Positions 20,129 through 39,381 of a stretch of 64,000 nucleotides of DNA are shown here, piece after piece. Location of the stretch: contig OMZE01000024.1 of the NCBI GenBank assembly GCA_900315455.1, positions 1 to 64,000 on the forward strand, written 5' to 3'. Source of the stretch: an uncultured Prevotellaceae bacterium. GTDB taxonomy: Bacteria; Bacteroidota; Bacteroidia; Bacteroidales; Bacteroidaceae. How positions within the stretch are numbered: the first letter of the stretch is position 1; the number at the start of each line of letters is the position of its first letter. Both the position numbers and the translations under genes were made by a program. The notes beneath the pieces are model-generated. The model did not search any database and had not been told where the DNA came from. It worked only from the letters and a program-made list of their open reading frames with translations.

Positions 20129-20159
20129 CAAAGGTACGAATAAGCGAGCGGAAAGCAAA
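20129..20159 (-). promoter_or_regulatory. ileS promoter carried by the first palindromic repeat unit
   Basis: On the minus strand TTTG (20159-20156), 19 nt and TACCTTTG (20136-20129) make a full-consensus Bacteroidetes promoter. The start codon is about 75 bp downstream. Both boxes lie within the gene-proximal repeat unit. Confidence 0.75.
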
Positions 20160-20452
20160 AAAAATCGCAGACTTTTTTGCTTTCCCGAGCGTGAGTACCT
20201 TCGCCGCGGAGCGGCAAAGGACGAATAAGCGAGCGGAAAGCAAAAAAAATCGCAGATTTTTTTGCTTTCCCGAGCGGAGTACCTTCGCCGCGAAGCGGCA
20301 AAGGACGAATAAGCGAGCGAAAAGCAAAAAAAAACGCAGATTTTTTTGCTTTCCCGAGCGAGAGTACCTTCGCCGCGAAGCGGCAAAGGACGAATAAGCG
20401 AGCGGAAAGCAAAAAAAATCGCAGATTTTTTTGCTTTCCCAAGCGGAGTACA
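20129..20452. repeat. Tandem palindromic repeat array, four units of about 85 bp
   Basis: Units begin at 20129, 20215, 20299 and 20384. Each holds an A/T-rich hairpin (GGAAAGCAAA... / ...TTTGCTTTCC around a GCA loop) and a second palindrome, CCTTCGCCGC / GCGGCAAAGG. Only the unit next to ileS keeps TACCTTTG on the minus strand; the other three have lost one base there (TCCTTTG). Open frames through the array are composed of the repeat and are not genes. Related arrays lie near 30.0, 33.5 and 39.2 kb. Confidence 0.9.
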
Positions 20453-20469
20453 CCCCATCCCACCTTCTT

Positions 20470-20860
20470 TTTTGAGGTCCAAGCCTATGGCTTGGATGTT
20501 CCAACCTCTCCCACCTCTCCTTCATAAGGAGAGGCCTCGACCCACCCCCCGTCCCCCGCCCTCTCCAGGGCGGGGGCTCAACCGCTCCTCCTCGTCGCTC
20601 TTTCATTAAGGTTCTGCTCCCGAAGGTAGGTCGCAGGGAGACAACAGAGTTGCGATTGTTTGTGCGGGCTTCGCCCGCGTTTGCTCCAACTTTGTTATAT
20701 GGAAACGAGAGTACCTTCGCCGCGATGTTAGTAGAGACGGGATTCTTCCCGTCTCCTTAGCGGAATGCTAAGCAAATAACACTAATGTGTAAAGCCGCCC
20801 CCTTCTAACTCCTCAACGATGTCACTATAAACTTGGCACAGGCGCTGGGTGCTGTGCTTG
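20470..20860. other. Gene-free spacer with several hairpins
   Basis: I see no gene. Short perfect palindromes include CCAAGCC/GGCTTGG near 20480, CTCTCC/GGAGAG near 20515, CCCGCCCT/AGGGCGGG near 20557, GCGGGC/GCCCGC at 20664-20678 and a 9-bp stem GAGACGGGA/TCCCGTCTC at 20734-20755. A short relic of the palindromic repeat (GAGTACCTTCGCCGCG) lies near 20709. None has a clear T-tract, so they look like REP-type debris rather than terminators. Confidence 0.6.
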
Positions 20861-21667
20861 TTACTTCACCAATTTGAATGAGTTGCCCGTCCACTTGAGC
20901 ATCCATTCGGTGGGCTCACACCCACCGTCGCCATTGTCTTTGTACATCGACAGTTCTATGTCCTTCCCCTTCTGGGGCAAGCGCAGGATAAAGTCGTCGA
21001 AGTCGCCCTCCTGCACGGCTTTCTCCACAATACCGAAGACCTCCATGTCGGGGGTCATCTTCTTGGTAGCCGGGTCGTAGTCGTAGAACATGAATGCCGA
21101 CTCAGAGAAATCGCCCTCCGTTTCATGGCGCATATATGTGCCTATGAGCGAATGGCCACCGGGCCGTTTCCAATAGCACATCTCGGTATATTGGTCGTAT
21201 TGATTTGCCATCGCCAACCTGAGGAACCCATTGGGAACATCACTGGTGACATAGCACATCTCTGCTTCTTGATTAAACTTTTTCGGGTCATCGAGATAAT
21301 TAAGGATTATCCCATTGGGCTGGTATTTGCTGTACTGCCGGCAAAAAGCCCTGGCGAAGTCTTGGATAATCACTTTCTCTGCTGCGGGATATACTGCGAG
21401 TGGCAATGCCTTCCATGAGGCTGCCATCTGGTCTATCTCCGTTCCCTGCCCCTCTGTCTCCTGCTGAACAGCCACAGTGTCAGTATCCTCTACCGTTTCC
21501 AAACTGTCTGTGGCAACATCATCTTTTGGCGTTACCTCTGTCGTCGTCACATCGGCAGCGGCACTCTCTTCCCTGTCGGCCTTTTCGGTCTTTCCACATG
21601 CTGTCATCATGGTCATGGCGACAGCCATCAACAGCATCCTATTGCCAAATAAATAGACTCTTCTCAT
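20861..21667 (-). CDS. Hypothetical lipoprotein
   Basis: The product is 268 residues. It starts MRRVYLFGNRMLLMAVAMTM followed by MTACGK, a lipoprotein signal with the lipid Cys near residue 24. A long acidic Thr/Glu/Val-rich linker (to about residue 75) precedes a compact mixed domain with SWKALPLAVYPAAEKVIIQD and a C-terminal MLKWTGNSFKLVK. The distribution of Cys, Tyr and Trp suggests a folded periplasmic or surface domain, but I recognise no family. It is monocistronic: a terminator separates it from the M16 gene upstream and a gene-free spacer follows. Confidence 0.75.
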   Translation of the reverse strand: MRRVYLFGNRMLLMAVAMTMMTACGKTEKADREESAAADVTTTEVTPKDDVATDSLETVEDTDTVAVQQETEGQGTEIDQMAASWKALPLAVYPAAEKVIIQDFARAFCRQYSKYQPNGIILNYLDDPKKFNQEAEMCYVTSDVPNGFLRLAMANQYDQYTEMCYWKRPGGHSLIGTYMRHETEGDFSESAFMFYDYDPATKKMTPDMEVFGIVEKAVQEGDFDDFILRLPQKGKDIELSMYKDNGDGGCEPTEWMLKWTGNSFKLVK

Positions 21668-21694
21668 GTTGATATTTATTGAATGAAAGAAACA

Positions 21695-21731
21695 AAATCG
21701 TAAGTCCCTTTTTGCAAGGAACTTACGATTT
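21695..21731 (-). terminator. Terminator of the M16 peptidase gene
   Basis: A 16-bp stem (21695-21710 with 21716-21731, one mismatch) and a 5-nt loop are followed on the minus strand by TTTTGTTT. Confidence 0.8.
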
Positions 21732-21766
21732 CTTTTATATTCGCTATGACGCTTTCTGCAAGCGTA

Positions 21767-24565
21767 TTACTCTGGCATCATCACCACTTGGGCGTGGTTC
21801 TTCGACTTCAAGATGACCTTCTTGAGGAAGTTCGACACCTGCTTCGGGGTGACACTCTCCACGATGCTCTTGTAGTTGGTATGGATATCCACGCCATAGG
21901 TGTTGAAGCGGTTGAGCACGGTGAGCCAGTATCTGTTGGTAGCGGCATCCACATCAGCCTGCTTGAGCAGAATCTGCTTGGCCTTGTTCAGGTCTTCCTC
22001 GTTGGGAGCCTTCACGGTAGCGTTCATGCCCTTGAGGAACTCGGGTATGGCAGCAGCAGCCTTTTCGGGGTTGAGTTGTGCTGTTCCCTGGATGGTGATA
22101 TACGACAGCGGACCGTCGGTATCTACCTCACACTCTGCGCCGGCATGGTAGGCAGCCGACATGTTCTCACGGATTTCCCTGAGATACAACGCCTCAAGCA
22201 TTCTTCCTGCACAGTCGGCAAGGATATTGTTCGTCTGGTCATATTTGAGTCCTTTCGAGCGCCAGACTTCAGCTGCCTCAGCCTGTGGGTTCTCCATCTT
22301 CTTCGTGAACTTGTTGGTGAGATTGCCATTGACAAACGTGCGCAGTTCCTTTCCTACGAAGTCGGCCTTACCCGTAGAGGGCAGCGAAGCGATATACTGC
22401 TCGATATACTCGCGGAGTTGTGCCTCGTCGAAGTTACCCACGAAGATGAAGTTGAAGTTGGCAGCATTGCCATAGAGTTGGTGAGCCATTTCAATGAGCC
22501 TGTCATAGTTGGTAGCCTCCACCTGCTCAGCCGTTGGGATTCTGAACAACGGGTTGTTGCCATACAGTGTGCTGGCAACGGAGTCCTGGAACACGATGCT
22601 GCTGTTGAGGCTGATGTTCTTCAGTTGTGTGACGAGCATGTTGCGATAGTTGTTGAACGCGTTCTCGTCTTTGTTGAGGTTGGTGAAGTTGAGATAGGTG
22701 AGTTGCATCAGCGTCTCAAGGTCTTTCGGGGTACTGCTGCCACTGAAAGAATGTCTGAAGTTCTGGACATTGAACGAGGTACTCACCTGTTTTCCAGAGA
22801 GTGCCTTCTGCAGGTCGTTGACCATGAAGTTGCCCACTGCGCTCTGCGAGAAGAAAATGCTGGCGAGTTGCAGGTTCATGGCATCCTCTTTTCCGAAGAG
22901 CGACGCACCACCTTCCGACACGGCAAGCAACAGGATTTCATCGGCGTTGAAGTCGGTGTGCTTCAGCATCACCTTGGCACCATTGGAGAGGGTGAGTTGC
23001 TTGAAGCCGAGTGTGGCATTCTCCGACTCGCTCACGATGCTTCCCTTTGCGGGCAGTTCACTCATGAGCGGCTCTTGCTTCACGTTGTCTACGTAGGCCT
23101 CAAGGGTCTCTGTTCTCACGCCTTCTACTACTCTCTTCATGTCTGCGGGAGTATAGGTGTCCTTCCCCTCCTGCACTAAGGCGAGGGCCACGAAGTTGGT
23201 GTCGGTCAGGTTGATGAACTGCTCAGCAATCTGGTTGATGACATCCACGGTGAGGGCGGGGGCAATCTGGTTCAAGAGTTCATGTCTCTGCTCGATGGAA
23301 GGGATGGGCTCGCCGTTGATGAAGTTCTGCACATACTCGTTGCACAACTGGTGGGTACGGGTCTTCTCACGGTTGTTGTAGGCTTTCTCCACCCTGCTGA
23401 GGAGTTCTGCTCTCGCACGGTCATACTCCGTGGCAGTGAAGCCGAAGTCCTTCACCCTCTTGGCCTCACGGATGGCGGTGGCGAGGGCTTCGAGGTCTTT
23501 CCCCTCCTTGGGCAACACCTGGAGCGTGAAGGCATCCTTGGTGCGCGATACGAGATAGGTGCCTTCCTCAGTACCTACCTGGCTGATGGCACTCTCGGGT
23601 TTCTGAGTCTCTTCCTGGAAACGCATGTCGAGCATGTCGGTGATGACGTCGCGAGCATAGTCTACCACCAAGTAGGCAAGTTGACCTTTGATTTCATCGG
23701 GCACAGCGTCATGCTTCATCATCAGGAGCATCATCGACATCTGCTGTTCCTTGTCTGTTCCCACGAGATAGATGCCCTCGTTGTTGTCGGGCACCTCTAC
23801 CGGCTCTACCTTGGCGGCATTGGCAGGAACGGTGATACCACCGAAGAGTTCCTTGATTTTCTGCTCGGTGCGGTCAACGTCGATGTCACCAACGATGATA
23901 ACGCCCTGGTTGTCGGGACGATACCATTTGCGGTAGTAGGCACGCAGTGTCTCGGGAGAGCAACCGTCGATAACCGACATCAGTCCGATGGGGAAGCGAT
24001 CGCCGTATTTCGAACCGGGATAGAGTTTGGGCAGGTTGTTCTCGAGGATTTTCTGCGTACCCTTGATACGCATGCGGTATTCATTGTGCACCACGTCGCG
24101 CTCCTGGTCGATGGCCTTCTCGTCGAGGGTAATGGCGTTCGACCAGTCCTTGAGGATGAGCATACATGAGTCAATGGCAGAGATACGTGTCGTAGGCACG
24201 TCTTCAATGTAATACACCGTCTGGTCGGTAGAGGTATAGGCATTCAGGTTCCTGCCATACTCCACACCTATCGACTGCAGGTATTCCTGCAACTGATTGT
24301 CCTTGAAGTGCTCTGTACCATTGAAAGCCATGTGCTCAAGCAGGTGAGCAAGACCGCGTTGGTCTTCATTTTCCTGCACCGATCCCACTTTCTGTGCGAT
24401 GTAGAAACTCGCCATATGCTCCGGATAGTTGTTATGGCGGATGTAATAGGTCAGTCCGTTGTCGAGTGTTCCCTTACGCACGTTGGGGTCGACAGGGATG
24501 TTCTGTGCCTGAACCACCATGCAGAAGAGCAATAGCGCGGCACTTAAAAGTTTTCTCATTGTCAT
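21767..24565 (-). CDS. M16-family zinc peptidase (pitrilysin/insulinase type), secreted
   Basis: The product is 932 residues, a tandem two-lobe M16 protein. The signal peptide is MRKLLSAALLLFCMVVQAQ (with two possible ATGs two codons apart). The N-terminal lobe has the inverted zinc motif in LAHLLEHMAFNGTEHF (His, Glu and His of HxxEH) and a downstream Glu in an ALDEKAIDQERDVVHNEYRM-like region. The C-terminal lobe (from about 500) lacks the motif, as is usual. Bacteroidetes homologues are periplasmic or outer-membrane peptidases that degrade peptides into pieces for import. It is divergent from padR, with a 400-bp spacer that carries promoters for both. Confidence 0.95.
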   Translation of the reverse strand: MTMRKLLSAALLLFCMVVQAQNIPVDPNVRKGTLDNGLTYYIRHNNYPEHMASFYIAQKVGSVQENEDQRGLAHLLEHMAFNGTEHFKDNQLQEYLQSIGVEYGRNLNAYTSTDQTVYYIEDVPTTRISAIDSCMLILKDWSNAITLDEKAIDQERDVVHNEYRMRIKGTQKILENNLPKLYPGSKYGDRFPIGLMSVIDGCSPETLRAYYRKWYRPDNQGVIIVGDIDVDRTEQKIKELFGGITVPANAAKVEPVEVPDNNEGIYLVGTDKEQQMSMMLLMMKHDAVPDEIKGQLAYLVVDYARDVITDMLDMRFQEETQKPESAISQVGTEEGTYLVSRTKDAFTLQVLPKEGKDLEALATAIREAKRVKDFGFTATEYDRARAELLSRVEKAYNNREKTRTHQLCNEYVQNFINGEPIPSIEQRHELLNQIAPALTVDVINQIAEQFINLTDTNFVALALVQEGKDTYTPADMKRVVEGVRTETLEAYVDNVKQEPLMSELPAKGSIVSESENATLGFKQLTLSNGAKVMLKHTDFNADEILLLAVSEGGASLFGKEDAMNLQLASIFFSQSAVGNFMVNDLQKALSGKQVSTSFNVQNFRHSFSGSSTPKDLETLMQLTYLNFTNLNKDENAFNNYRNMLVTQLKNISLNSSIVFQDSVASTLYGNNPLFRIPTAEQVEATNYDRLIEMAHQLYGNAANFNFIFVGNFDEAQLREYIEQYIASLPSTGKADFVGKELRTFVNGNLTNKFTKKMENPQAEAAEVWRSKGLKYDQTNNILADCAGRMLEALYLREIRENMSAAYHAGAECEVDTDGPLSYITIQGTAQLNPEKAAAAIPEFLKGMNATVKAPNEEDLNKAKQILLKQADVDAATNRYWLTVLNRFNTYGVDIHTNYKSIVESVTPKQVSNFLKKVILKSKNHAQVVMMPE

Positions 24566-24626
24566 GTTGAAATGTGTTGATAAAAAGTATGTAATAAAAT
24601 GATTATAGTTTCATCACGAAATCGTG

Positions 24627-24634
24627 CAAAGTTA
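24627..24634 (-). promoter_or_regulatory. Putative -7 box for the M16 peptidase gene
   Basis: The minus strand reads TAACTTTG (TAnnTTTG) about 62 nt before the start. The -33 element is not clear. Confidence 0.45.
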
Positions 24635-24834
24635 GCACAAAACCCTGACATATCGTCATTTTTTTTATATTTTTACACAAATAAAGTATAAAATGTGCAA
24701 TAATTGGCACAATTGTTCAAATCGCATTTGTCGACATAGATTATAAAAGGTATATAATAAAAAACATGCGAACTGGCCAAGAGGACATACTTCATTCGGC
24801 CCAACTGTAAAAGGATGTTAAATATTTGCATTTT

Positions 24835-24863
24835 TATAGTACTATGTATTGCAAGGTACTATA
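24835..24863 (+). promoter_or_regulatory. Candidate PadR operator overlapping the padR promoter
   Basis: TATAGTAC (24835-24842) and GTACTATA (24856-24863) are perfect 8-bp inverted halves with a 13-nt spacer. They straddle the -33 box of the padR promoter. PadR dimers bind such A/T-rich dyads, so negative autoregulation is likely. Confidence 0.55.
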
Positions 24864-24879
24864 AAAAAGTATATTTTTG
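24848..24879 (+). promoter_or_regulatory. Promoter of the padR-pspC operon
   Basis: ATTG (24848-24851), 20 nt and TATTTTTG (24872-24879) fit the -33/-7 consensus with one mismatch. The leader to the padR ATG is about 80 nt. Confidence 0.65.
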
Positions 24880-24966
24880 TAGCGTCGTTCACTGTAAGGC
24901 CTCAGCGGGCGGCATGGCAGACTGGCCATCTGCTATCAATTCGTCAAATATCAACAAAGAAGCGTT

Positions 24967-25314
24967 ATGAACATAGACAATGCGAAATCACAGATGCGCA
25001 AAGGGATGTTGGAATACTGCGTCCTCTTGCTGTTGCGTCGTCAACCTTCCTACGCCAACGACATCATCGTGCAGTTGAAGGATGCCGACCTGATTGTGGT
25101 GGAAGGCACGCTCTATCCCCTATTGAGCCGTCTGAAGAAAGACGGTCTGCTGACCTACGAGTGGCGAGAGTCGTATCAGGGTCCTCCCCGGAAATACTAT
25201 GCGATGACCGACGAGGGCTCCCTGGCCTTACGTGAGATGGACTCCACCTGGAGTTCGCTCACCCGCACGGTAGACCTGCTGAAAAACCCTCTGGCGACTA
25301 CACCAAGTCTTTAA
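24967..25314 (+). CDS. PadR-family transcriptional regulator
   Basis: The product is 115 residues. The winged-helix domain is complete: KGMLEYCVLLLLRRQPSYAN (helix 1), DADLIVVEGTLYPLLSRLKK (recognition helix, with the family hallmark G-T-L-Y-x-x-L-x-R-L) and RESYQGPPRKYYAMTDEG (wing, with GPPRKYY). The C-terminal helix is short, as in subfamily 2. Such proteins repress their own operon and respond to small molecules or envelope stress. An inverted repeat on its promoter supports autoregulation. The PspC-like gene starts 80 nt downstream. Confidence 0.92.
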   Translation: MNIDNAKSQMRKGMLEYCVLLLLRRQPSYANDIIVQLKDADLIVVEGTLYPLLSRLKKDGLLTYEWRESYQGPPRKYYAMTDEGSLALREMDSTWSSLTRTVDLLKNPLATTPSL

Positions 25315-25326
25315 AGAAAGAAAGTA

Positions 25327-25371
25327 TTTATAGTTCCTATAGTCACTATAGTTACTATCGCCACTATAAAA
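25327..25371 (+). repeat. Nonamer array (ACTATAGTC-type), five units
   Basis: Five 9-bp units variant of ACTATAGTC lie in the padR-pspC spacer. The same family recurs at 53.85, 56.1 and 62.5 kb, with a close variant at 59.7 kb. Confidence 0.75.
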
Positions 25372-25394
25372 AAACCACAAAAAAATCCATCACA

Positions 25395-27183: not shown

Positions 27184-29952
27184 CTACCAGAGCATGTCAC
27201 GGATAGTCATGAGATGCTGTTCTTCTTCTGGTGAGAGCAACCCCTTGTGCCAGCAATCTTTCTGCTGCTGAAGCCAGAGGGCGAGTTGGTGCTCCTTGGT
27301 GAAGAGTTCAAGTGGCTCACGCTGATGCTCTGCCACAAACTGCCTCACCGCCTCGAATTGCTCAAACCAGTCAGGAATTTCAGGAATTTCAGGAATGTTA
27401 GGAATATCTGAGGATTCCGGAGTTTCAGGAATGACAGGAATAACAGGAATGTCAGGAATATTAGGAATATCTGAGGTTTCCACGCTCTCGGGAATGTCAA
27501 TGCCTTCCGGGGTTTCCTCGCTCTCGGGAATGTCAATGCCTTCCGGTGCTTCCACGCTCTCGGGAATGTCAATGCCTTCAGGGGCTTCCACGCTCTCAGG
27601 AATGTCTTGAATTTCGGGAATTATCGGCTTCTCTTCTGAGGTGGTTGACTCCTTTTCAAGGGCAGCCAATTCCTCTTCCATCAACAATTCCAAAGGAGGC
27701 TCTTCTGCGAATTCGGGGACAATGAAGGGCAACTCATCAGAAATATCAAGAATATCAGGAATGTTAGGAATAACAGGAATTTCGGAGGCTTGCTGGGTTT
27801 CTGGAATTTCTGGGCATTTTGGGCATTTTGGGCTTTCTGGGCCTTCCGAAATTTCTGGGCTTTCTGGGCCTTCTGGGGTTTCTGGGGTTGCCGGTTGTTC
27901 TTCTTTAGGCTCTATTTTCTCAATGGGTTGCTCTTGGGTGGCGAGGGCCTGGTATTTCTCTACCAACTCGATGATTTCCTTGAAGGCTTCGCGTTTCGAG
28001 GCAGTCCATTTGGCATTTTCCACAAATTCCTTCTTCTTTCTCGTAAACCAGTAGATGAGACGTTTCTCCTCAGGGCTGTTTTTCGATGAGGGCAGACGAT
28101 GGTTGGTGTCCACAAAATAGCGGAAAGCGCTGAGGTCGGCCTCGAAGTTGTTTCTTCCCGGCTTAATCAGTTCTGCATCATATTCCTTGTCTACCAATCC
28201 GTAATAACCTACTCCGAATTTCCTGAACTTGTCTTTCGCCATGGAGATGACCGAGGAGAGTTCGTTTTTCCCCAACGACTCATTGTAAGGATATTGGTTG
28301 AGCACGTCGAGAATCTCATCGCTCTCCATGGGCCTGTCCGACTGGCTGAGCACCTGACTGATGATGTCGGCATTGCTGCCGAAGTAAGGCAATTGCCACT
28401 CGGTGAGTGCATAGAGCCCTTTCTTACCGTTGTTGACAAACCTCGGGTCTTTGTTGAGCGCGAGCGAGACAGTGCCTTTCGCATATTTCCTTCCGTCGCT
28501 GGCATTGATGGTGTCGGTAAGCAGAGTGAGTGCCATCGGTTGCTCATTGTTCTCGGAGAGAATCAGGTATAGCCTGTCGTTGAGCGACTTCTCCACCTTC
28601 CGGGGCACTACCACACGCAACTCTTCCTCGGTAGCGAGTTCCAGTTCACCCACCACCACAGTCTGCAAGATGGTGGCAGCCGTCGTCAGGTCGGCGTCAT
28701 CAAGACTGTCGTTGTTGTCGGCATAGGCGTTTCTCACGAAGTCATCCATTCCCACTGTCTGGTTGTCTGTCGACCGGGCATACACTCGGTCACGGAAATC
28801 CACGAACAGTTCACGGAAGCCGAACGAAGAATCAAATTGTCTGTCAATGAGATAGACATGTTTCCACCTTTCTGCCTTTGCCGTGAGCAGACTTCTTGGA
28901 TAGCCTCCCAATGCGATGTAATGCTCGTGAAGCAGTTTGCCCAGCATCCCCACGATGCAGGTGGGCGCAAGGAGCAATCTCTCCTCTTGTATGACATCAG
29001 CGATTTGCGGGTCACCCTCTGTCACCATTGTCTTTCCTATATAGGCTTTCAGGTCGTCTCGGGCCTGGTCGTTGTCCACGAGCACCTGTGCCAAGGGGTC
29101 GAGTTGTTCCCACCCCTCCTCGCTGTCGAAGAGGGCATCGTAGATAGAGTTCGAATAGGTGGCGATGGTATAAGCCGACCTGTCGATGGGTGTGTTGTCG
29201 AGTTCCACCCTGCCCTCAAACACGTCATACCTGTTGAGAAAAGCCCTCAGTTCCGCCCTGGTCTTGTTGCTAATGATGAGTTGTTGCAGGATGTAGAGCA
29301 TGGGCAGACGCTGGTGGGCATTGTAGAAATCGAGGATGAAAGCATCGTCGTCGAACCTGCCACGGCTCCTTTGCAGGAAGAGGTGATATCTCACCATCTC
29401 AGGTTGCTGCTGTATGATATCCACCACGTTTTTCATGGCTTTTTTCACTTCCACGAAATGATTCACCGAGGTTCTCCCCACGTTGTAGAGAATCATGATC
29501 TTGTCGTCATCATCGTAAAGGAAATCTCTCAGGAAGATGGGAAGGGAAACCTGTGTGAGGGCGTTGGCGATGACGGTGTGTGCCCTTTGCCGTGAGGCAA
29601 AGAGTCGGCGCAGCACATTGTCGTAGGAGAGTTGCAGCAACTGCATCTCCTCTTCGCTGAGTGAATCGAGGAGTTGTTCCCCCGCCGATTTCTCCACGAT
29701 GGTATCCATGAAGAGCCTACCGGAAATATTGGGCAGGTAGTCAACAGTCCTGGCCCTCTCTATCAACTGTGTCACCTCGGTGAGGTTGGGAGACTGTGGA
29801 GAGAACAGTCTCTTCAGACCGTTTTGGTATTTCTTCAAGTCGAAGAGGGTACGCAGGCGGGCCTTCACGAGTATGTTGTAGGTTCGTCTTGAAATATTTC
29901 CGCTTCTGAGGAGGTCTTCCACAGATATCGATTTCATTTGTTGGTCGGTCAT
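27184..29952 (-). CDS. Large protein with RpoA-CTD-like, HARE-HTH-like and helicase-associated-like domains
   Basis: The product is 922 residues from ATG 29952; the longer frame begins at a TTG at 29997 and is less likely. Residues about 6-45 (SISVEDLLRSGNISRRTYNI) resemble the helix-hairpin-helix of the RNA polymerase alpha C-terminal domain. Around 474-525, LTDTINASDGRKYAKGTVSL and ALNKDPRFVNNGKKGLYALT followed by EW match the HARE-HTH (HB1/ASXL/RpoE-delta) winged helix. Around 600-643 and 861-922, two W-x3-F-x2-L/F repeats ending in ...Wxxxxxxxxx(K/R)GLLS resemble helicase-associated (HA) domains. Residues about 685-861 are a Pro/Glu/Ile linker built from 9-bp repeats. All this suggests a nucleic-acid or transcription-related role; none is known. 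Its promoter lies in a palindromic repeat. Confidence 0.7.
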   Translation of the reverse strand: MTDQQMKSISVEDLLRSGNISRRTYNILVKARLRTLFDLKKYQNGLKRLFSPQSPNLTEVTQLIERARTVDYLPNISGRLFMDTIVEKSAGEQLLDSLSEEEMQLLQLSYDNVLRRLFASRQRAHTVIANALTQVSLPIFLRDFLYDDDDKIMILYNVGRTSVNHFVEVKKAMKNVVDIIQQQPEMVRYHLFLQRSRGRFDDDAFILDFYNAHQRLPMLYILQQLIISNKTRAELRAFLNRYDVFEGRVELDNTPIDRSAYTIATYSNSIYDALFDSEEGWEQLDPLAQVLVDNDQARDDLKAYIGKTMVTEGDPQIADVIQEERLLLAPTCIVGMLGKLLHEHYIALGGYPRSLLTAKAERWKHVYLIDRQFDSSFGFRELFVDFRDRVYARSTDNQTVGMDDFVRNAYADNNDSLDDADLTTAATILQTVVVGELELATEEELRVVVPRKVEKSLNDRLYLILSENNEQPMALTLLTDTINASDGRKYAKGTVSLALNKDPRFVNNGKKGLYALTEWQLPYFGSNADIISQVLSQSDRPMESDEILDVLNQYPYNESLGKNELSSVISMAKDKFRKFGVGYYGLVDKEYDAELIKPGRNNFEADLSAFRYFVDTNHRLPSSKNSPEEKRLIYWFTRKKKEFVENAKWTASKREAFKEIIELVEKYQALATQEQPIEKIEPKEEQPATPETPEGPESPEISEGPESPKCPKCPEIPETQQASEIPVIPNIPDILDISDELPFIVPEFAEEPPLELLMEEELAALEKESTTSEEKPIIPEIQDIPESVEAPEGIDIPESVEAPEGIDIPESEETPEGIDIPESVETSDIPNIPDIPVIPVIPETPESSDIPNIPEIPEIPDWFEQFEAVRQFVAEHQREPLELFTKEHQLALWLQQQKDCWHKGLLSPEEEQHLMTIRDMLW
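27361..27900 (-). repeat. In-frame nonamer minisatellite blocks encoding an IPE/IPD/GPE linker
   Basis: Blocks of ATTCCTGAA-type units (27370-27475 and about 27735-27790), a 36-bp (4 x 9) repeat encoding PESVEAPEGIDI (27480-27605) and GCCCAGAAA-type units (27800-27895) lie within the coding frame. Because the unit is 9 bp, copy-number change keeps the frame. Confidence 0.85.
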
Positions 29953-30028: not shown

Positions 30029-30059
30029 CAAAGATACGAATAAGTGAGCGTAACGCAAA
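30029..30059 (-). promoter_or_regulatory. Promoter of the 922-residue protein gene, carried by a palindromic repeat
   Basis: On the minus strand TTTG (30059-30056), 19 nt and TATCTTTG (30036-30029) form a consensus promoter about 77 bp before the ATG at 29952. Confidence 0.7.
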
Positions 30060-30190
30060 ATAAATAACGAAGTTTTTATTTTGCGTTACCGAACGGGAGT
30101 ATCTTCGCCGCGAAGCGGCAAAGTACGAATAAGTGAGCGTAGTACAAAACAAATAACATAATTTTTGTTTTTAACTACCCGATGTAAGTA
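30029..30190. repeat. Palindromic repeat array, two units
   Basis: Unit 1 has a long hairpin (TAACGCAAAATAAA / TTTATTTTGCGTTA around AACGAAG-like loop) and the CTTCGCCGC/GCGGCAAAG palindrome. Unit 2 (from 30119) reads CAAAGTACGA, one base short of the CAAAGATACGA of unit 1, so its -7 box is broken. It belongs to the family at 20.1, 33.5 and 39.2 kb. Confidence 0.85.
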
Positions 30191-30198
30191 TCTTTAAT

Positions 30199-30239
30199 GA
30201 AAAAAACGACAGCGAAGCGTTATTGTGCTTTGCTGTCGT
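30199..30239 (-). terminator. Probable terminator downstream of the PrsW-type gene
   Basis: A 13-bp stem (30206-30218 with 30227-30239, one mismatch) is followed on the minus strand by a run of seven T residues. Confidence 0.65.
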
Positions 30240-32899: not shown

Positions 32900-33520
32900 T
32901 CAAGGTGATACAGTGATATGAAGACAGGTCTGCTTGGTCTCATACCTCACGAAGCACCTGTGGTCTTTCCTCAGTTTATCGAGCACTTCGCCGAGGAGAT
33001 ACTTCATCTGTGGCTGTGAGGCCTGCTTTCCACCTACATACTTGAACCTGCGATAGGAAAGGTCGAAGGTGGTGGCATGACAGTGGGCGGAGTTGGCCAC
33101 GGCATTGCTGTTCACCTTCATCAACTTCCTCACGTCATCCTTCGTTCGCAGCACCGAGGTGACGATAATCTTATACTCTCCCATCTTGTGCTTCTTCATC
33201 GATTTCTGAAACTTCTTCCCGATATCTTTCAAGAGTTTTGCTGCGTCGGGGGTAAGGTATGGCACCGAATGGGTAAGCGGGTCAACGGCGTAGTATTTGT
33301 TTTCTTCTATATGTTTGAGTTTCCGTTTCACACGCCGCAGGTCATCCCTTGTCTCCAACGGCTCGATGCCGTATTGCTGTGCGGCAGCGAGTTGATGGGG
33401 ATTGTTGTCATTAAACCGGAAAGGCCAGTTCTCCGGCACTGCCTCCCTATGGCTTGCGCAAGCACAAAGGAACAGACAGACTATCGCAACAATGATTCTG
33501 AAAAGCGGTTTAGCAATCAT
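32900..33520 (-). CDS. DUF5715 / M15-like (D,D-carboxypeptidase-type) lipoprotein
   Basis: The product is 206 residues. The lipoprotein signal is MIAKPLFRIIVAIVCLFLCA followed by CASH. The domain has NSAHCHATTFDLSYRRFKYV, which fits the M15 zinc pattern S-x-H-x(6)-D, and a later CLHITV that supplies a His. The helix-strand region GEYKIIVTSVLRTKDDVRKL is like that of VanY-type peptidases. A peptidoglycan-processing role is inferred, not shown. The gene stop lies 41 nt before the TonB-domain ATG. Its promoter region is made of palindromic repeats. Confidence 0.72.
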   Translation of the reverse strand: MIAKPLFRIIVAIVCLFLCACASHREAVPENWPFRFNDNNPHQLAAAQQYGIEPLETRDDLRRVKRKLKHIEENKYYAVDPLTHSVPYLTPDAAKLLKDIGKKFQKSMKKHKMGEYKIIVTSVLRTKDDVRKLMKVNSNAVANSAHCHATTFDLSYRRFKYVGGKQASQPQMKYLLGEVLDKLRKDHRCFVRYETKQTCLHITVSP

Positions 33521-33539: not shown

Positions 33540-33566
33540 CAAAGATACGATTAAGTGAGCGGAATG
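33540..33566 (-). promoter_or_regulatory. Promoter of the DUF5715-like gene in the first repeat unit
   Basis: On the minus strand TATCTTTG (33547-33540) lies 20 nt before the ATG. The -33 box 19 nt upstream is TTCG, one mismatch from TTTG; unit 2 (33626-33656) has a full TTTG-N19-TACCTTTG. Confidence 0.6.
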
Positions 33567-33880
33567 CGAAAGAAAAGACGAAGTTTTTTCTTTCCATTCC
33601 CGAACGAGAGTATCTTCGGCGAAGCCAAAGGTACGAATAAGCGAGCGCAATGCAAAATAAAATAATATTTTATTTTCATTGCCGAGCGTGAGTACCTTCG
33701 ACCGAAGGTCAAAGATACGATTAAGTGAGCGGAATGCGAAAGAAAAGACGAAGTTTTTTCTTTCCATTCCCGAACGAGAGTATCTTCGGCGAAGCCAAAG
33801 ATACGAATAAGCGAACGTAGTGCAAAACAAAATAAATTATATTTTCATTGCCGAGCGAGAGTATCTTCGACCGAAGGTCA
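33540..33880. repeat. Palindromic repeat array, four units in A-B-A-B order
   Basis: Units start at 33540, 33626, 33710 and 33796. Units 1 and 3 are identical over 86 bp; units 2 and 4 are close relatives of each other, so a 170-bp higher-order repeat has been duplicated. Each link between units is a palindrome of the type TATCTTCGGC/GCCAAAGATA. All four carry TAyCTTTG on the minus strand. Confidence 0.92.
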
Positions 33881-33900: not shown

Positions 33901-33940
33901 AAACCTCAAACCTTAAACCTCAAACCTTAAACCTTAAACC
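33901..33940 (+). repeat. Heptamer array (AAACCTT/AAACCTC)
   Basis: About 5.7 units of 7 bp, alternating C and T at the last base, lie next to the palindromic array. It is a second heptamer sequence besides ATTGAAA. Confidence 0.85.
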
Positions 33941-34005
33941 ACAATATTCTTCTTCTAATTTTTGTTAATTTTCGGAAAAAGAGTATATGATTGGCGGAAA
34001 ATCCC

Positions 34006-34013: not shown

Positions 34014-34089
34014 TAAGTTTGATAGCGCAAACACCGTGCTTTCAGGCTCAACCTACATCTATTCTATATCTTTCGTAAAACCATCTATC

Positions 34090-34485: not shown

Positions 34486-34488
34486 TGC

Positions 34489-34569
34489 CCCAAAGCGCCT
34501 AAGAACCCCTACAACCTAAGGCCCCCAAGGATCCCAAAGGCCCCTAGCACCCCAAAGACCCTAATACCA
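34489..34569 (+). repeat. Nonamer array (CCAAAGACC-type), nine degenerate units
   Basis: The spacer divides without remainder into nine 9-bp units related to CCAAAGACC. It starts right after the dockerin-like gene's stop and ends 33 bp before the next ATG. Confidence 0.7.
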
Positions 34570-34601
34570 ATCACTAATAACAATCAATAAGTTCTACTCT
34601 A

Positions 34602-35489
34602 ATGAAACAAACTACTATTATGTCTTTCCTGTTGGCCCTGTTTGCCCTGAGCGCCATGGCCGACTCGAAAGAAACAGTCACTGTGAACGGCTCGGTAGTC
34701 AATAAGTTTGCTACCTCCATCACCTTCGATGGTGACAATGTCACCCTCACCTACGATGACGGTACTTCTCAGACCACCGACATGGAAACCACATCCATCG
34801 CCTTCAACTATGTGGCAGTGTTCAGCGATGCCGCCGGGTTCTCCAACGTAGAGACAGTGAAGACCTTCGGTGAACGTACCCTCGCCGTAGAGGTGAACCG
34901 CTCGGTAAAGACCGGACAGTGGAACACCATCTGCCTGCCCTTCGACATGTCGGCCGACGACATCGCCGCCGTCTTCGGCGACGGCACAAAGGTGGCACAG
35001 TTGGAGAGTGCCAGCGAGAGCAACATCAACTTTGCCAGCACCACGAAGATGGTGGCTGGCCGTCCCTACATCATCTATCCCTCGCAAGACCTGAGCAGTT
35101 TCACCCTCGAGGCAGCCTTGGTGAAGAACTTTGCCGAGGGGTCCACAGCAAGCGCTGAGACCTTCGACTTCATCGGCACCATCGACGCCGTAGTGCCTAC
35201 CGGCAACGTCTATTACCTTGCCAACGGCAACAAGGTGAAGCGCCTCTCCTCGGGCAGCACCATCAAGGCCCTCCACGCCTACCTGCTCTTCACCGCCGGG
35301 GGCAGCACCAATGTCAGCACCTTCTCCATCGACGGTGTGGGCACCGGCATCGCCTCCACGCTGCTCGATGAAACGGCGGGCGACATGCCCATCTACACCA
35401 TCAGCGGTGTGTATGTGGGCAACGACATCAGCCGTCTGCCACAGGGCATCTATATCGTCAACGGAAAGAAACTTATCGTGAACCGCTAA
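34602..35489 (+). CDS. Secreted protein with a type IX-sorting-like C-terminus
   Basis: The product is 295 residues. Signal peptide MKQTTIMSFLLALFALSAMA. The body starts with a short repeat also seen in other Prevotella proteins (TVNGSVVNKFATSITFDGDN), then a beta-rich region with WNTICLPFDMSADDIAAVFG and MVAGRPYIIYPS. This motif pair is frequent in Prevotella secreted proteins of unknown role. The C-terminus, MPIYTISGVYVGNDISRLPQ then GIYIVNGKKLIVNR, resembles a type IX secretion sorting tail. The small acidic peptide gene starts 12 nt downstream and the pectate lyase follows, so a shared transcript is likely. Confidence 0.75.
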   Translation: MKQTTIMSFLLALFALSAMADSKETVTVNGSVVNKFATSITFDGDNVTLTYDDGTSQTTDMETTSIAFNYVAVFSDAAGFSNVETVKTFGERTLAVEVNRSVKTGQWNTICLPFDMSADDIAAVFGDGTKVAQLESASESNINFASTTKMVAGRPYIIYPSQDLSSFTLEAALVKNFAEGSTASAETFDFIGTIDAVVPTGNVYYLANGNKVKRLSSGSTIKALHAYLLFTAGGSTNVSTFSIDGVGTGIASTLLDETAGDMPIYTISGVYVGNDISRLPQGIYIVNGKKLIVNR

Positions 35490-35501
35490 TCCCGAGAAGC
35501 C

Positions 35502-35711
35502 ATGAGAAAGACATTCCTCTCCGCCACTATGGCAAGCCTCGTCTACAAGGCTCCCGAGACCACCGTTCACCCCGCTGTCACCGAAGCCATCCTCGGCGAC
35601 TTCTCCATCACCATCGACGGCACCCCCTCTCCCATCACCTTCGATGAAGAAGAGGAAGGCGATGGCGAAGACATCGCCACCAACGCTCACAAACTATGGG
35701 ACATAGACTAA
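35502..35711 (+). CDS. Small acidic peptide, 69 residues, related in layout to the 59-residue peptides
   Basis: Starts MRKTFLSATMASLVYKAPET, has an acidic stretch (TFDEEEEGDGEDIATNAHKL) and ends LWDID. N-terminus (M-x-K-x-[YF]-[IL]-x) and C-terminus (a Leu-Trp-Asp end) share their pattern with the two near-identical peptides at 43.7 and 50.9 kb, but identity elsewhere is low. No signal peptide. It sits between a secreted protein and the pectate lyase. Function unknown; it may be a precursor or an accessory peptide. Confidence 0.55.
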   Translation: MRKTFLSATMASLVYKAPETTVHPAVTEAILGDFSITIDGTPSPITFDEEEEGDGEDIATNAHKLWDID

Positions 35712-35752
35712 TACCCGGCAGCATGACACTCACCTACAAAACAAGCAACAAC

Positions 35753-38629
35753 ATGAAAAGATATACCTTATCATATATAATCATCACGCTCCTTACCCTG
35801 ACGGGCATGAGCACTCACGCCCAGACCTCTTGGAATTTCAATACCCTCAGTGATGCCGACGCCACCCTGCTCGCTGACGACGACAGCGGCAACTGGCTGC
35901 ACGACACCAGCAGCAACAACCGGTGGTGCTACATCAAGGCGCTCTCCGCTCAGCCTCTCATGGCCAACGGCAGCGAACTGGCATGGGGCGAGGGCCTGCT
36001 GTTCTCGTGTAATGCCAACAGCAGCGGCAACCTGCGTATCGACATCAAGAACAAGCGGGGTTGGATAGGTGGCTCAGGAGCCGCCATCACCATCCCCAAC
36101 CTCAAGAAAGGACAGGTGGTGACCTTCGAGTACAAGACTTCCAGCAGCGGAACAGCCCGCGGCATCACCCCTACCAACCTCAGCGGCACCACCGGCTGCG
36201 ATGCCTCCACCGACCAACAGACCGCCAGAGGCACGGTGGCAGCCAATGGCGACGTGGTGCTCACCCCCACCGGAGCCATATATTTCTACTCCCTCACCGT
36301 GAGCGAGGTGCCCAGCGGTGCCACAGTCATACCCGGTGCCGGCACCGACCTGTATGAGGATGTCAGCGCCAATACCGTGGCACGCAACCTCTACGCCAAC
36401 CAGATGCTCGTGCAACTCTACAACGGCGAGGTGAAGGTCTACGACACCGCCACCCTCCAGGCGGTGGATGTAGACAAGGCGGCGTCGAAGGTCACCATCA
36501 CACCAAAGAACGGCACGCCCGACGTGTATTACGGTACGGTAGCAAACATCTCGTTCTCGAAGGCAGAGGATACCGGCAACGACCCCATCATCACCAACAA
36601 CGGCGTGGAAATCACCGAAGCAAGGGGATGGCTGGAGTCGGCCTACGTGAAATGGACCCCCTATCAGGGTGCCACGTCGTATGCCGTCTACGTGAAGGGC
36701 GGACAGTTCAGCGACTACACGAAAATCGACAATATGCTCGTGCGCGACTACGGCACCTACGGCCGTGCCGACATGGTGGGCTTGCGCGCCGCCGACAACT
36801 ATGCGTTCAAGGTGGTGCCCATCATCAGCGACAACGAGGACGCCACGCTCGCCAGTACCGCCGAGGCCATCGAGGTAAGGAACTACAGCCGTGCGGGCTT
36901 TGCCCACAAGGGCTACAGCGGTGTAGGAGCCTATAACGACGACGGCACGCTGAAGAGCGGTGCCCGCGTGTTCTATGTGACGAAGAACACCGCGAAGACC
37001 ATCCAGTGCGACGTGAAGACGAGCAGCAGCGGCACCACCTCGTGCACCGGCATCCAGGCCATTATCGACGCCTACCAGAAAGGCTACGACACCACCCCCA
37101 TCGCCTTCCGCGTCATCGGTCTGCTGGAAGCCGACGACATCGACTATTTCAGCAGTTCTGCCATGGGTCTCCAACTGAAGGGGAAGAATGCCTACAGCGA
37201 GATGAACATCACCATCGAGGGCATCGGCGAGGACGCCACGCTGCGTGGCTTCGGCTTCAACGTGCGCAACTGCAAGGGTGTAGAGATACGCAACATCGCT
37301 ATCATGCGCTTCATGGAGGATGGCATTTCGCTCGATACCGACAACTCCAATATCTGGCTCCACAACATCGACTTCTTCTATGGTAAGCCCGGCAGCGCTG
37401 CCGACCAGAAAAAAGGCGACGGCACTATCGACATGAAAGATAACTCCAAATACGTGAGCGTGAGTTACTGCCACTACTGGGACTCCGGAAAGAGCGGCCT
37501 GGCTGGCATGAAGAGCGAGAGCGGCCCCAACTACACCAGTTTCGACCACAACTGGTTCGACCATAGCGACTCCCGCCATCCACGCGTGCGCACGTTGAGC
37601 GTACACGTGTGGAACAACTATTTCGACAACGTGGGAAAATACGGTGTGGGAGCAACAATGGGCTCGAGCGTGTTTGTAGAGAACAACTTCTTCCTCAAGA
37701 CGAAGAAGCCCATCCTCTCGTCACTGCAGGGCACCGATGGTTTGGGCAGCGGCACCTTCTCGGGTGAAAACGGCGGCATGGTAAAGGCCTACGGCAACTC
37801 CTTCGACCGCACGGCCCCCCATTTCAGTTACTACACCCAAAACGCCCCCTCGTCGAAAGGCTACGATGCCTACGAGACGACCTCACGCGATGAGCAGGTG
37901 CCCGCCTCAGAGGTGACACTTGTGGGCGGCACTACGTACAACAACTTCGACACCGACGCATCGGTGATGTACGACTATACCCCCGACCTCGCTGTCGACG
38001 TGCCTGCCGTGGTGACAGGATGGTGGGGTGCCGGACGCATGAACCACGGCGACATCAACTATACCTTCTCCGACAATATTGGCGATGATGACGCCGACTC
38101 TGCCATCGACCCGACCCTCAATGCGCTTATCGACAGTTACACCTCGTCGCTCAAGGGCATCTTCGGTGGCGAGACCATCAGCGGCGGTGGTGGCGACAAT
38201 CCCGGAGGTGGTGATGAGCCGGGAGGTGGCGATGAACCGGGAGGCAACACCATCAATGCCGACCAGGAGTGCACGTTTAATGCCGATGGAGGCACAAACG
38301 CCCTGTTCAACATCTCGGGCAACACCTCCAACAGCAAAGGCACGGCCGTGGTGAATGGAGAGACACTCGAATGGTGCCTGAAGTTGGAAAAAAACACATC
38401 GGTGACGTTCACGCTCGACAAGGCAATGACCCTCATACTCGTATTCGGCAGTGAAGACAACAAGTACACCATCAAGGTGGATGACGTGAAGAAGACCGGC
38501 ACGTCCGACAGCGGCACCACACCCGGACAGGGCACGCTCACGGTCGCCCTGGATGCCGGCCCACACACGCTCACCAAGGCCGACACCGGCAACCTCTTCT
38601 ACATCGGACTGAAGTCTATTGAAAATTGA
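35753..38629 (+). CDS. Pectate lyase, PL1 family, with C-terminal carbohydrate-binding-type module
   Basis: The product is 958 residues from ATG 35753, which gives the signal peptide MKRYTLSYIIITLLTLTGMS ending THAQ. ATGs at 35696 and 35723 add residues without function. Residues about 25-200 form a beta-sandwich of unknown role, then about 280-380 a fibronectin-type region. The PL1 beta-helix spans about 460-790: NVRNCKGVEIRNIAIMRFME, TSFDHNWFDHSDSRHPRVRT (with the catalytic Arg of the R-x-P-x-x-R motif) and VHVWNNYFDNVGKYGVGATM. A Gly/Pro-rich linker (GGGGDNPGGGDEPGGG) leads to a C-terminal domain. It would split polygalacturonate by beta-elimination outside the cell. Its last codons and stop lie in a heptamer array. 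Confidence 0.9.
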   Translation: MKRYTLSYIIITLLTLTGMSTHAQTSWNFNTLSDADATLLADDDSGNWLHDTSSNNRWCYIKALSAQPLMANGSELAWGEGLLFSCNANSSGNLRIDIKNKRGWIGGSGAAITIPNLKKGQVVTFEYKTSSSGTARGITPTNLSGTTGCDASTDQQTARGTVAANGDVVLTPTGAIYFYSLTVSEVPSGATVIPGAGTDLYEDVSANTVARNLYANQMLVQLYNGEVKVYDTATLQAVDVDKAASKVTITPKNGTPDVYYGTVANISFSKAEDTGNDPIITNNGVEITEARGWLESAYVKWTPYQGATSYAVYVKGGQFSDYTKIDNMLVRDYGTYGRADMVGLRAADNYAFKVVPIISDNEDATLASTAEAIEVRNYSRAGFAHKGYSGVGAYNDDGTLKSGARVFYVTKNTAKTIQCDVKTSSSGTTSCTGIQAIIDAYQKGYDTTPIAFRVIGLLEADDIDYFSSSAMGLQLKGKNAYSEMNITIEGIGEDATLRGFGFNVRNCKGVEIRNIAIMRFMEDGISLDTDNSNIWLHNIDFFYGKPGSAADQKKGDGTIDMKDNSKYVSVSYCHYWDSGKSGLAGMKSESGPNYTSFDHNWFDHSDSRHPRVRTLSVHVWNNYFDNVGKYGVGATMGSSVFVENNFFLKTKKPILSSLQGTDGLGSGTFSGENGGMVKAYGNSFDRTAPHFSYYTQNAPSSKGYDAYETTSRDEQVPASEVTLVGGTTYNNFDTDASVMYDYTPDLAVDVPAVVTGWWGAGRMNHGDINYTFSDNIGDDDADSAIDPTLNALIDSYTSSLKGIFGGETISGGGGDNPGGGDEPGGGDEPGGNTINADQECTFNADGGTNALFNISGNTSNSKGTAVVNGETLEWCLKLEKNTSVTFTLDKAMTLILVFGSEDNKYTIKVDDVKKTGTSDSGTTPGQGTLTVALDAGPHTLTKADTGNLFYIGLKSIEN

Positions 38630-38687
38630 AGATTGAAAATTGAAAATTGAAGATTGAAAATTGAAAATTGAAAATTGAAAATTGAAG
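38618..38687 (+). repeat. Heptamer array (ATTGAAA/ATTGAAG)10
   Basis: Ten 7-bp units. The array begins inside the last codons of the pectate lyase gene and supplies its TGA stop. Confidence 0.9.
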
Positions 38688-38690
38688 ACA

Positions 38691-38734
38691 ACACAGAGAC
38701 ACGGAGAACCATTGTGATTTCCGTGTCTCTGTGT
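38691..38734. repeat. Inverted repeat of ACACAGAGACACGGA type
   Basis: A perfect 15-bp stem (38691-38705 with 38720-38734) has a 14-nt loop. A related octamer-based inverted repeat lies at 54585-54645. Confidence 0.8.
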
Positions 38735-38850
38735 TTCTGTATTGTTAACATTATTGTGCCGAGTTGGCCGATTCGGCTTCGTTTTTCACTTTTAGACATC
38801 CGTGCTTCCTTGGCGGTGCCATCTACAGTGCCATCTATTTGCAAAAACAT

Positions 38851-39060
38851 TCAGATACCCATATCCGCCACCGAGGCGATGAGGTCGTAGTCGTGGTGCA
38901 ACTGGGTGATATACGTCCCGATGCTGTTAGGGCTCCTTGCCATGAGCGACGCCAGCGCATTGATGTTGGCCCCGGGAGTGGAGAGGTAAGCCATGGCAAA
39001 GGAGTGACGCATGTTGTAGCACGACAACTCCGCAATATTGATGAGAGGCCGCTGCTGACG
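38851..39060 (-). pseudogene. C-terminal remnant of a tyrosine recombinase/integrase
   Basis: The minus strand reads NMRHSFAMAYLSTPGANINA then LASLMARSPNSIGTYITQL, ending in TGA. This has the box II R-H-(S/T)-F-A layout, the following Gly, and the LxSL-M-x-R/HS-x-x-x-T-x-x-Y helix of phage-type integrases. Upstream the frame is closed by a stop, and no N-terminal part or catalytic first Arg is present. It is about 70 residues of a lost gene, next to an inverted repeat, so it may mark an old insertion. Confidence 0.5.
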
Positions 39061-39088
39061 CGTTCAACGGTTGCGACGCTCAACAAGT

Positions 39089-39188
39089 AATAACAACAGC
39101 AAATCGTTTCTTTAACGAACACGAATTAACCGAATCTACACGAATAAGTATTGATAATCATTCGTGTAATTCGTGTGATTCGTGTTCG
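39089..39188. repeat. Copy A of an inverted-repeat pair flanking the AmmeMemoRadiSam operon
   Basis: The element is an imperfect palindrome whose arms contain ATTCGTGTx nonamers. Its reverse complement matches 42022-42156 over 45 bp and 35 bp of exact identity, apart from a 34-bp block present only in the right copy. Extra identity (CTCAACAAG-AATAACAACAG) extends into the 3' end of a dockerin-like reading frame. Confidence 0.88.
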
Positions 39189-39258
39189 TTTTTTATACAT
39201 TGCCGCTGCGCGGCGAAGATAGGAGGCGCCTTGGAATCGAAAATAAATTTTGATTTAT

Positions 39259-39289
39259 TTTGCGCTTCTCTCGGCTTTCACTATCTTTG
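39259..39289 (+). promoter_or_regulatory. First repeat-borne promoter for the amr operon
   Basis: TTTG (39259-39262), 19 nt and TATCTTTG (39282-39289) match the consensus exactly. Confidence 0.65.
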
Positions 39290-39350
39290 CCACTGCGTGG
39301 CGAAGATAGGCTGCACCTCAACAAAGCAAAACAAAAACTTCGTATTTTGT

Positions 39351-39381
39351 TTTGCTTTGTCTTCGGTTTGCACTATCTTTG
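39351..39381 (+). promoter_or_regulatory. Second repeat-borne promoter for the amr operon
   Basis: TTTG (39351-39354), 19 nt and TATCTTTG (39374-39381) match the consensus exactly. This one is 36 nt before the ATG at 39418 and is the likelier start. Confidence 0.72.

Follow-up and report, generated by a model that had tools for sequence, protein, structure and literature searches.

A dispersed family of tandem palindromic repeats with a putative one-way promoter in one arm, from an uncultured Prevotellaceae bacterium and its genus

The first 64,000 nucleotides of contig OMZE01000024.1 of an uncultured Prevotellaceae bacterium (referred to here as the window) contain four arrays of a palindromic unit of about 80 nt, at 20.1, 30.0, 33.5 and 39.2 kb. 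They comprise 4, 2, 4 and 2 units, 12 in all. These arrays probably belong to a tandem-amplifying family of palindromes, akin to repetitive extragenic palindromic (REP) sequences and miniature inverted-repeat transposable elements (MITEs), in which one arm of the palindrome is a one-way promoter. As judged from sequence, the family is real, dispersed and large, and its members bear a predicted directional promoter. The initial annotation of the window had described hairpin arrays at these four places, each with its promoter facing the adjacent gene, and both statements hold.

Architecture of the Repeat Unit

The unit is an imperfect palindrome. In the direction of the promoter it runs from CGAAnnTA through an inner palindrome with an A/T-rich core to TTTG-N19-TAyCTTTG, which has the features of a Bacteroidetes-type promoter (-33 TTTG and -7 TANNTTTG, about 19-20 nt apart). 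The last base of the unit is the end of the -7 box, so the leader of the gene itself begins directly behind the unit. Within an array, the CTTTG of one unit is joined to the CGAAG of the next through a second short palindrome, for example CCGCTTCGCGG. In the genome sample described below, where 87 of 97 joins could be read, this linker is 3-11 nt long (7-11 nt in 84 of the 87) and palindromic in 82. The exact motif TTTG-N19-TAyCTTTG is found in 6 of the 12 window units, against 0.01 occurrences expected from shuffles; this is fewer than the "most" units of the initial annotation. The -7 box is intact in 8 of the 12, including all four gene-proximal units, and each of the four broken boxes (GTCCTTTG three times, GTACTTTG once) is one base away from an intact one.

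The 20.1-kb array lies on the minus strand and faces ileS (16620..20054, minus strand; TIGR00392 over cut-off), which is 74 nt downstream. Its gene-proximal unit (20129..20207) has an intact promoter, TTTG-N19-TACCTTTG, and an RNA fold z of -4.15; the two internal units (20215..20291 and 20299..20376) and the distal unit (20384..20461) all carry the broken box GTCCTTTG. The 30.0-kb array, on the same strand, has a gene-proximal unit with an intact promoter (30029..30111; fold z -5.45) and a distal unit with the broken box GTACTTTG (30119..30200). It faces the gene of a 922-aa protein (27184..29952, minus strand) that matches no family above a cut-off. In the 33.5-kb array, again on the minus strand, the second unit (33626..33704; fold z -4.42) and the distal unit (33796..33873) have intact promoters. 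The gene-proximal unit (33540..33622; -7 box TATCTTTG) and the third unit (33710..33792) have an intact -7 box and TTCG at -33, so that two of the four units, not one as first annotated, deviate at -33. This array faces the gene of a DUF5715 protein (32900..33520, minus strand; PF18979, 210 bits). The 39.2-kb array lies on the plus strand. Both its distal unit (39210..39289), with a palindromic linker on its left at 39203-39213, and its gene-proximal unit (39297..39381; fold z -6.43) have intact promoters facing a Memo/AMMECR1 (AmmeMemoRadiSam B+A) fusion gene (39397..40926, plus strand; start codon candidates at 39397, 39418 and 39457). Two other repeats adjoin the arrays: a short tandem repeat of 14-nt period around AAACCTCAAACCTT at 33901-33949, just past the distal end of the 33.5-kb array, and an inverted repeat with 22-nt arms, 86% complementary, at 39114-39190, just upstream of the 39.2-kb array.

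Distribution in the Genome and the Genus

The genome of the bacterium (4.76 Mb in 93 contigs) contains the exact motif 94 times, against 2 for a reversed control, and 58 of the 94 occurrences lie inside family units. A covariance model built from 34 chosen promoter-bearing units, and hence leaning to such units, gives at least 150 matches in the genome; genome-wide counts of this size (at least 116, at least 150) are lower bounds. From 109 fetched loci and the window, 239 matches less 28 reverse-strand shadows left 211 units. These form 114 arrays, of which 52 have one unit, 37 two, 15 three and 10 four. Loci L001-L064 were picked by the exact promoter and L065-L109 by the covariance model only. 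Because the former were selected through the motif, the latter, promoter-blind loci are counted separately below.

The units sit before unrelated genes, among them ileS, dnaG, trmD, rnpB and the DUF5715 and Memo/AMMECR1 genes. They behave as high-copy extragenic palindromes, with only 3 of the 114 arrays overlapping a called gene, and they resemble MITEs in being short and non-coding with terminal inverted repeats, the CGAAnnTA and TAnnTTTG arms of which covary. No invariant GTAG or CGTC tag was found among the invariant columns of the 34 aligned units. In a first sample of genomes, matches occurred in 16 of 23 others of the genus and in 1 of 16 from other families, where the match was weak. 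A second sample comprised 40 genus genomes, this one included, of which 31 had from 2 to at least 116 matches each, so that match number across the genus ranges from 0 to at least 116. We found no report of the family in the open-access literature, which mostly excludes subscription papers.

It could be argued that these are ordinary native promoters with look-alike palindromes upstream, involving neither an element nor movement. The native promoters of the genus indeed have the same -33 and -7 boxes, 36 of the 94 exact motif matches lie outside model units, and some matches (L005, L006) show little beyond the promoter half. Such a view is very improbable, given homologous 80-nt units at unrelated genes and in tandem arrays, a family nearly restricted to one genus in the sample, and the absence of the unit at rnpB of close relatives. 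It is contradicted already by the pairs of similar units, the rnpB tree and the comparison of genomes G018 and G020 discussed below.

Direction of the Promoter and Orientation Toward Genes

The forward promoter, TTTG-N18-21-TAnnTTTG, is present in 121 of the 211 units and a promoter on the reverse strand in 3. The claim that the units read the other way give TAyCTTCG at a different spacing, which would make the signal directional, is borne out: the reverse strand has TTTG-N14-18-TAnnTTCG, with its shorter spacer, in 44 of the 211. The left arm opposite TTTG reads CGAA or TGAA in 128 of 133 readable units (the pattern used allowed only CGAA, TGAA, CAAA and TAAA). Both tetramers pair with TTTG by G.T wobble, so the reverse strand has TAnnTTCG and thus no promoter box. 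The sequence supports the presence in the repeat of a directed promoter, and the unit's promoter would very likely drive transcription.

Retention of the -7 box points the same way. TAnnTTTG is intact in 101 of 114 gene-proximal units vs 46 of 97 internal ones, and at the promoter-blind loci in 48 of 55 vs 16 of 46 (p 4e-8). Both boxes are present at a spacing of N18-20 in 84 of the 114 gene-proximal units, a count that includes the motif-selected loci L001-L064. Several internal units have lost the box through loss of a single base. For 29 loci of 29 other genus genomes, each represented by its best-scoring unit, a choice that favours intact boxes, the -7 box is intact in 29 of 29 gene-proximal units, all with -33 at N19-20, vs 5 of 13 internal units. 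Retention near the gene and loss inside the array suggest that the gene-adjacent copy is kept as a promoter and that the other copies often decay.

The arrays examined are also not randomly oriented, random orientation being the outcome that the initial annotation had named as refuting its proposal. Genes were called by our own codon scores, a caveat to be set against the reading proposed here. By these calls, 107 of 111 arrays face the called downstream gene, a few at more than 500 nt; of the 114 arrays, those at L008:1144, L048:5170, L052:5031 and L079:6507 do not, and three have no called downstream gene. For 102 arrays, genes were called on both sides and none overlaps the array. A gene start is faced by 100 of these, 61 of them situated between divergent genes and 39 directed at the sole start present; no array points away from a sole start, and the remaining 2 are situated between convergent genes. 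The other 12 of the 114 have one side without a called gene, or overlap a gene. Reversing every array would leave 61 of the 102 facing a gene start. At the promoter-blind loci alone the figure is 48 of 49 (38 divergent, 10 sole-start, 0 away and 1 convergent). The median distance from the end of the -7 box to the start codon is 46.5 nt, and it is at most 150 nt in 86 of 96 cases; a divergent start on the back side of the array lies a median of 274 nt away. At the loci of the 29 other genomes, a downstream gene was called for 26 arrays and is faced by 25 of them; the remaining one (L237) is directed at the gene for RNase P RNA.

These counts bear on the idea that the repeats are invertible (phase-variable) promoters of the kind described in Bacteroidales, with which they have the same consensus in common (PMC8748976, as far as cited here). 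In the units the promoter lies inside one arm, not between two arms, and reversal is rare, as seen from the 3 reverse promoters and the 100 of 102 arrays that face a start. A promoter between inverted repeats in both orientations was not found in the 211 units and 102 arrays, among which no invertase was searched for. The probability of this alternative appears close to negligible.

Position of the Unit at rnpB and ileS

Two genes allow unit-bearing and unit-free relatives to be compared. For rnpB, 33 of 50 genomes with a match to the gene were examined, G018 and G041 being included for their units, and the 5' end of the RNA was taken as position 1 of the Rfam model, a proxy for the transcription start. 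In the 7 unit-bearing genus genomes the -7 box of the unit ends 7-16 nt before the RNA. Of the 26 unit-free genomes, which include G016 (L352) with a sub-threshold unit match of 19 bits, 23 have a TAnnTTTG that stops 5-17 nt short of the RNA (9-10 nt in 18 of the 23); none was found in the remaining 3. The match to RNase P RNA in the bacterium's own genome (L002:2705-3011) spans 307 nt and scores 117 bits, which is short and weak beside the full-length matches in other genus genomes (about 345-440 nt, 169-216 bits).

For ileS, the window protein is 92% identical to that of its best named match, the uncultured Prevotellaceae bacterium RUG602. Among 80 named relatives, 4 (L111, L119, L136 and L163) have a covariance-model match to the unit on the ileS side, and in 79 a TAnnTTTG lies no more than 150 nt from the start (median distance 40 nt). 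A leader CACCyTAA directly behind TAnnTTTG is common to the window and 9 of the 80, including L110, L112-L114 and L116. In L110, the closest relative, similarity to the window resumes at the -33 box, and a decayed single unit, which the covariance model did not detect, can be made out by eye. At both rnpB and ileS, comparison thus places the predicted -7 box of the unit at the position of the native -7 box. The window also has an open reading frame of 258 aa without a Pfam match (20861-21637), placed between the ileS array and the conserved gene that comes next. The syntenic interval spans only some 200 nt in L110, so the frame was gained in the lineage of the window or lost in that of L110.

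The presence of the unit at rnpB changes between relatives. On a tree of the 33 RNAs it needs 7 changes, at least 4 of them forced by well-supported branches. All of 500 label shuffles (500/500) need as few changes, so the unit label is not clustered on the tree; the tree is of one gene with 388 columns, and noise in such a tree adds to the lack of clustering. G018, with the unit, and G020, without it, are homologous upstream of rnpB (1,269 columns) up to -139 and -63, respectively, and again from -18; no exact empty site was found in this comparison. Turnover of the units, with gain or loss at rnpB, copies at unrelated genes and 0 to at least 116 matches per genome, is shown by comparison.

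Amplification, Movement and a RAYT-like Gene

The median identity between units is 78% within arrays vs 66% between arrays, as expected from local duplication, and tandem amplification of the predicted units is supported. As to movement, 12 pairs of same-length units from different arrays are at least 92% identical and lie at unrelated genes. In 11 of the 12 the similarity stops 0-4 nt past the -7 box; its left end varies. TTTG and a palindromic linker precede 19 of the 44 first units whose left arm is intact, as against 4 of 999 CGAAG sites taken as controls, a pattern compatible with insertion behind TTTG. An empty site was also sought at orthologues of the Memo/AMMECR1 gene, and none was concluded, the neighbourhoods being too divergent. 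The initial proposal of a mobile or amplifying promoter stands for amplification and for turnover; a clean insertion with defined ends and a proven enzyme are the parts that did not emerge.

A Y1 protein resembling RAYT, the transposase associated with REPs, is present in 24 of the 40 genus genomes. Three that were read have 326, 373 and 393 aa, the motifs DHLH and YLxDNPRR and a conserved C-terminal part; one that was tested scores 24.2 bits with Pfam Y1_Tnp (cut-off 23) and 38.3 bits with NCBIfam REP_Tyr_transpos (cut-off 80). The bacterium's own genome has six loci with such HUH genes or pieces of them (L002:3342-4322, L008:20-1141, L005:1169-2350 and L321-L323). The gene at L008 is followed by a decayed half unit 2 nt after its stop codon, and that at L002 lies just upstream of the rnpB unit; three further loci have no unit, and by eye their flanks have no hairpin in common. 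At present the RAYT-like enzyme is only a lead as the mover of the units.

The same protein is central to a different account, in which the units are selfish palindromes like REPs or bacterial interspersed mosaic elements (BIMEs) made by a RAYT, the promoter hitch-hikes, and the orientation reflects purifying selection after random insertion. Besides the occurrence of the protein in the genus, this account draws on the correlation between RAYT-like matched stretches and unit number (Spearman 0.47, p 0.002; species not independent), on a unit or part unit that follows the RAYT genes C20 and C40, on units near the RAYT loci of two other genomes (L228, L229), and on the retention of the palindromes in every context tested. 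It is opposed by the test of presence, which is not significant (21 of 31 unit-bearing vs 3 of 9 unit-free genomes, p 0.12, species not independent), and by the existence of unit-rich genomes without a RAYT-like gene. The end of the element is, moreover, set by the promoter arm and not by a random arm, and REPs are mostly found downstream of genes in the account cited (PMC3733652); here 2 of 102 arrays lie between convergent genes. We regard this account as possible but doubtful.

Several observations weigh against the proposal that the arrays are an amplifying, mobile family of promoters. Only 12 pairs of units are as similar as those above, which indicates that movement in this genome is not very recent. 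The test for a left-hand TTTG covered 44 of 114 first units, 70 being excluded, and only 5 of the 19 TTTGs belong to a full TAnnTTTG. The promoter stretch that differs between G018 and G020 has 121 nt in the one and 45 nt in the other and does not correspond to exactly one unit, which makes replacement as good an explanation as insertion. Ten of the 31 unit-bearing genomes lack the RAYT-like gene, among them the single-contig genome G040 with 33 unit matches, and in the own genome a unit lies at most 1 kb away at 3 of the 6 RAYT-like places. The family also has a promoter-less branch, with members in the window and at L048, L079 and L094. Lastly, pair types in the A1 structure of the palindrome, beyond the covariation described below, do not exceed shuffles (20 vs 21.0).

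Conservation and Role of the Hairpin

The arms of the palindrome covary. For this purpose 97 of the 211 units were readable; in them, the three outer pairs (those of both free bases of the -7 box and of the base preceding the box) are Watson-Crick in 88, 87 and 92 units, against 71, 53 and 62 in the best of 2000 shuffles. In the A1 structure, 96.4% of cells are paired vs 81.0% when shuffled and 46-57% when slid, and the covariation score exceeds all 500 shuffles; kinship between copies inflates covariation counts of this kind. As RNA, four window units fold with z of -4.2 to -6.4, and all 211 units have a median z of -2.28, with 122 below -2 (mononucleotide shuffles). The median is -3.08 where the upstream gene is divergent (n 53) vs -2.74 where it is co-directional (n 36), p 0.43. 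Fold quality is thus independent of read-in from an upstream transcript, which speaks for a role of the hairpin at the level of DNA.

An alternative is a boundary element acting as RNA, whose hairpin would terminate or shield the transcript arriving from upstream, with the promoter initiating the following one. The strong fold of the four window units and the covariation of the arms are in its favour. The predicted start of a solo unit, however, is downstream of the unit itself, and the unit's own promoter would therefore not transcribe the hairpin; the window units have no U-run after the hairpin; and hairpin quality is equal in the two upstream contexts. We consider such an element improbable. 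A role of the unit as terminator of the upstream gene was rejected, the fold being the same in both contexts.

Related and Neighboring Repeats

The promoter-less relatives of the unit are found in the window at 3707-3779 (plus strand), a degenerate match to the covariance model without an intact -7 box, and at L048:5170-5241, L079:6507-6578, and L094:3405-3476 and 3563-3634. Four of them are alike, with CTCAGCAAACTGAAAG...CATTCGGCTTGCACGA or nearly so, and those of L048 and L079 account for the two convergently flanked arrays mentioned above. They are possibly an older or a non-promoter branch of the family.

Several arrays are capped at their upstream end by another intergenic repeat, around TATTCGGGGCTTCATTTTGTGTGTTGCCCAATTCGTTACTCGG, which often follows a longer palindrome. 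It occurs in the window at 54649-54700 and elsewhere at L014:3285-, L040:3274-, L066:3253-, L068:2846+, L093:3212- and L084:3146-. In the window it stands alone, at the 3' end of the gene at 54705-56045. As it is also found solitary, it was rejected as a defining end of the arrays.

A Model for the Spread of the Promoter

A model consistent with these data begins with a right arm that would be a complete Bacteroidetes promoter: -33 TTTG, N19-20 and -7 TAnnTTTG. New copies may arise by insertion behind the TTTG of an existing -7 box and by tandem duplication. The palindrome may be kept because copying uses its single-stranded hairpin as substrate, perhaps through a RAYT-like HUH transposase. 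The wobble, with CGAA opposite TTTG, would let the arms pair and at the same time deny the reverse strand a promoter, so that a copy fires one way. Selection would then retain the copies that face genes and the last promoter of each array.

A more specific version would have promoters themselves as the target: a RAYT-like HUH enzyme would insert a single-stranded [linker + unit] behind TTTG and hand the gene a promoter with the same start. As the element ends in TAnnTTTG, each insertion would give a new promoter at the same start and a fresh target. We consider this version rather unlikely as it stands. If true, promoters would have been replaced repeatedly without moving the transcription start, and a single self-copying part would have served to rewire many promoters of the genus.

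Should the units drive transcription, housekeeping genes of this rumen bacterium, among them ileS, dnaG, trmD and the gene of RNase P RNA, would run on copies of one mobile repeat. Species with and without the unit at the same gene would then constitute a countable natural experiment on the gain, swap and loss of promoters. The units also suggest a simple route by which a near-palindrome may be made directional, by a single G.T wobble.

Comparison with Known Systems

The nearest described system is BrickBuilt, a MITE of Porphyromonas gingivalis (PMC4596501). As far as the cited description goes, it consists of a 23-nt tandem repeat with a leader and a tail, is present in 19 copies, has bidirectional promoter activity in E. 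coli probe vectors and was suggested to be a putative mobile promoter. The two are alike in being Bacteroidetes intergenic repeats with inverted-repeat ends and tandem units. The family described here differs in its palindromic units of about 80 nt, in its at least 150 matches, and in a promoter that is one-way by sequence and ends at the -7 box. With putative mobile promoters as a concept, as cited in the same report, the units have in common a promoter-bearing sequence copied before unrelated genes; here the copies are structured and in tandem, and form one family across a genus.

REPs, their REPIN arrangements and BIMEs are likewise short extragenic palindromes of high copy number, with a possible link to RAYTs here as well (PMC3733652, PMC6006769). 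In the parts of these reports drawn on here, REPs are located mainly downstream of genes (PMC3733652), and Bacteroidetes RAYTs (subclass 2.6) are flanked by atypical structures with copies elsewhere (PMC6006769). The present unit is longer, has no invariant GTAG or CGTC tag, contains a promoter and is located at gene starts. The invertible promoters of Bacteroidales, for which the cited text gives a consensus of -33 TTTG and -7 TANNTTTGY (PMC8748976), have this consensus in common with the units; in the family described here, the promoter lies in an arm of the palindrome and shows no sign of inversion.

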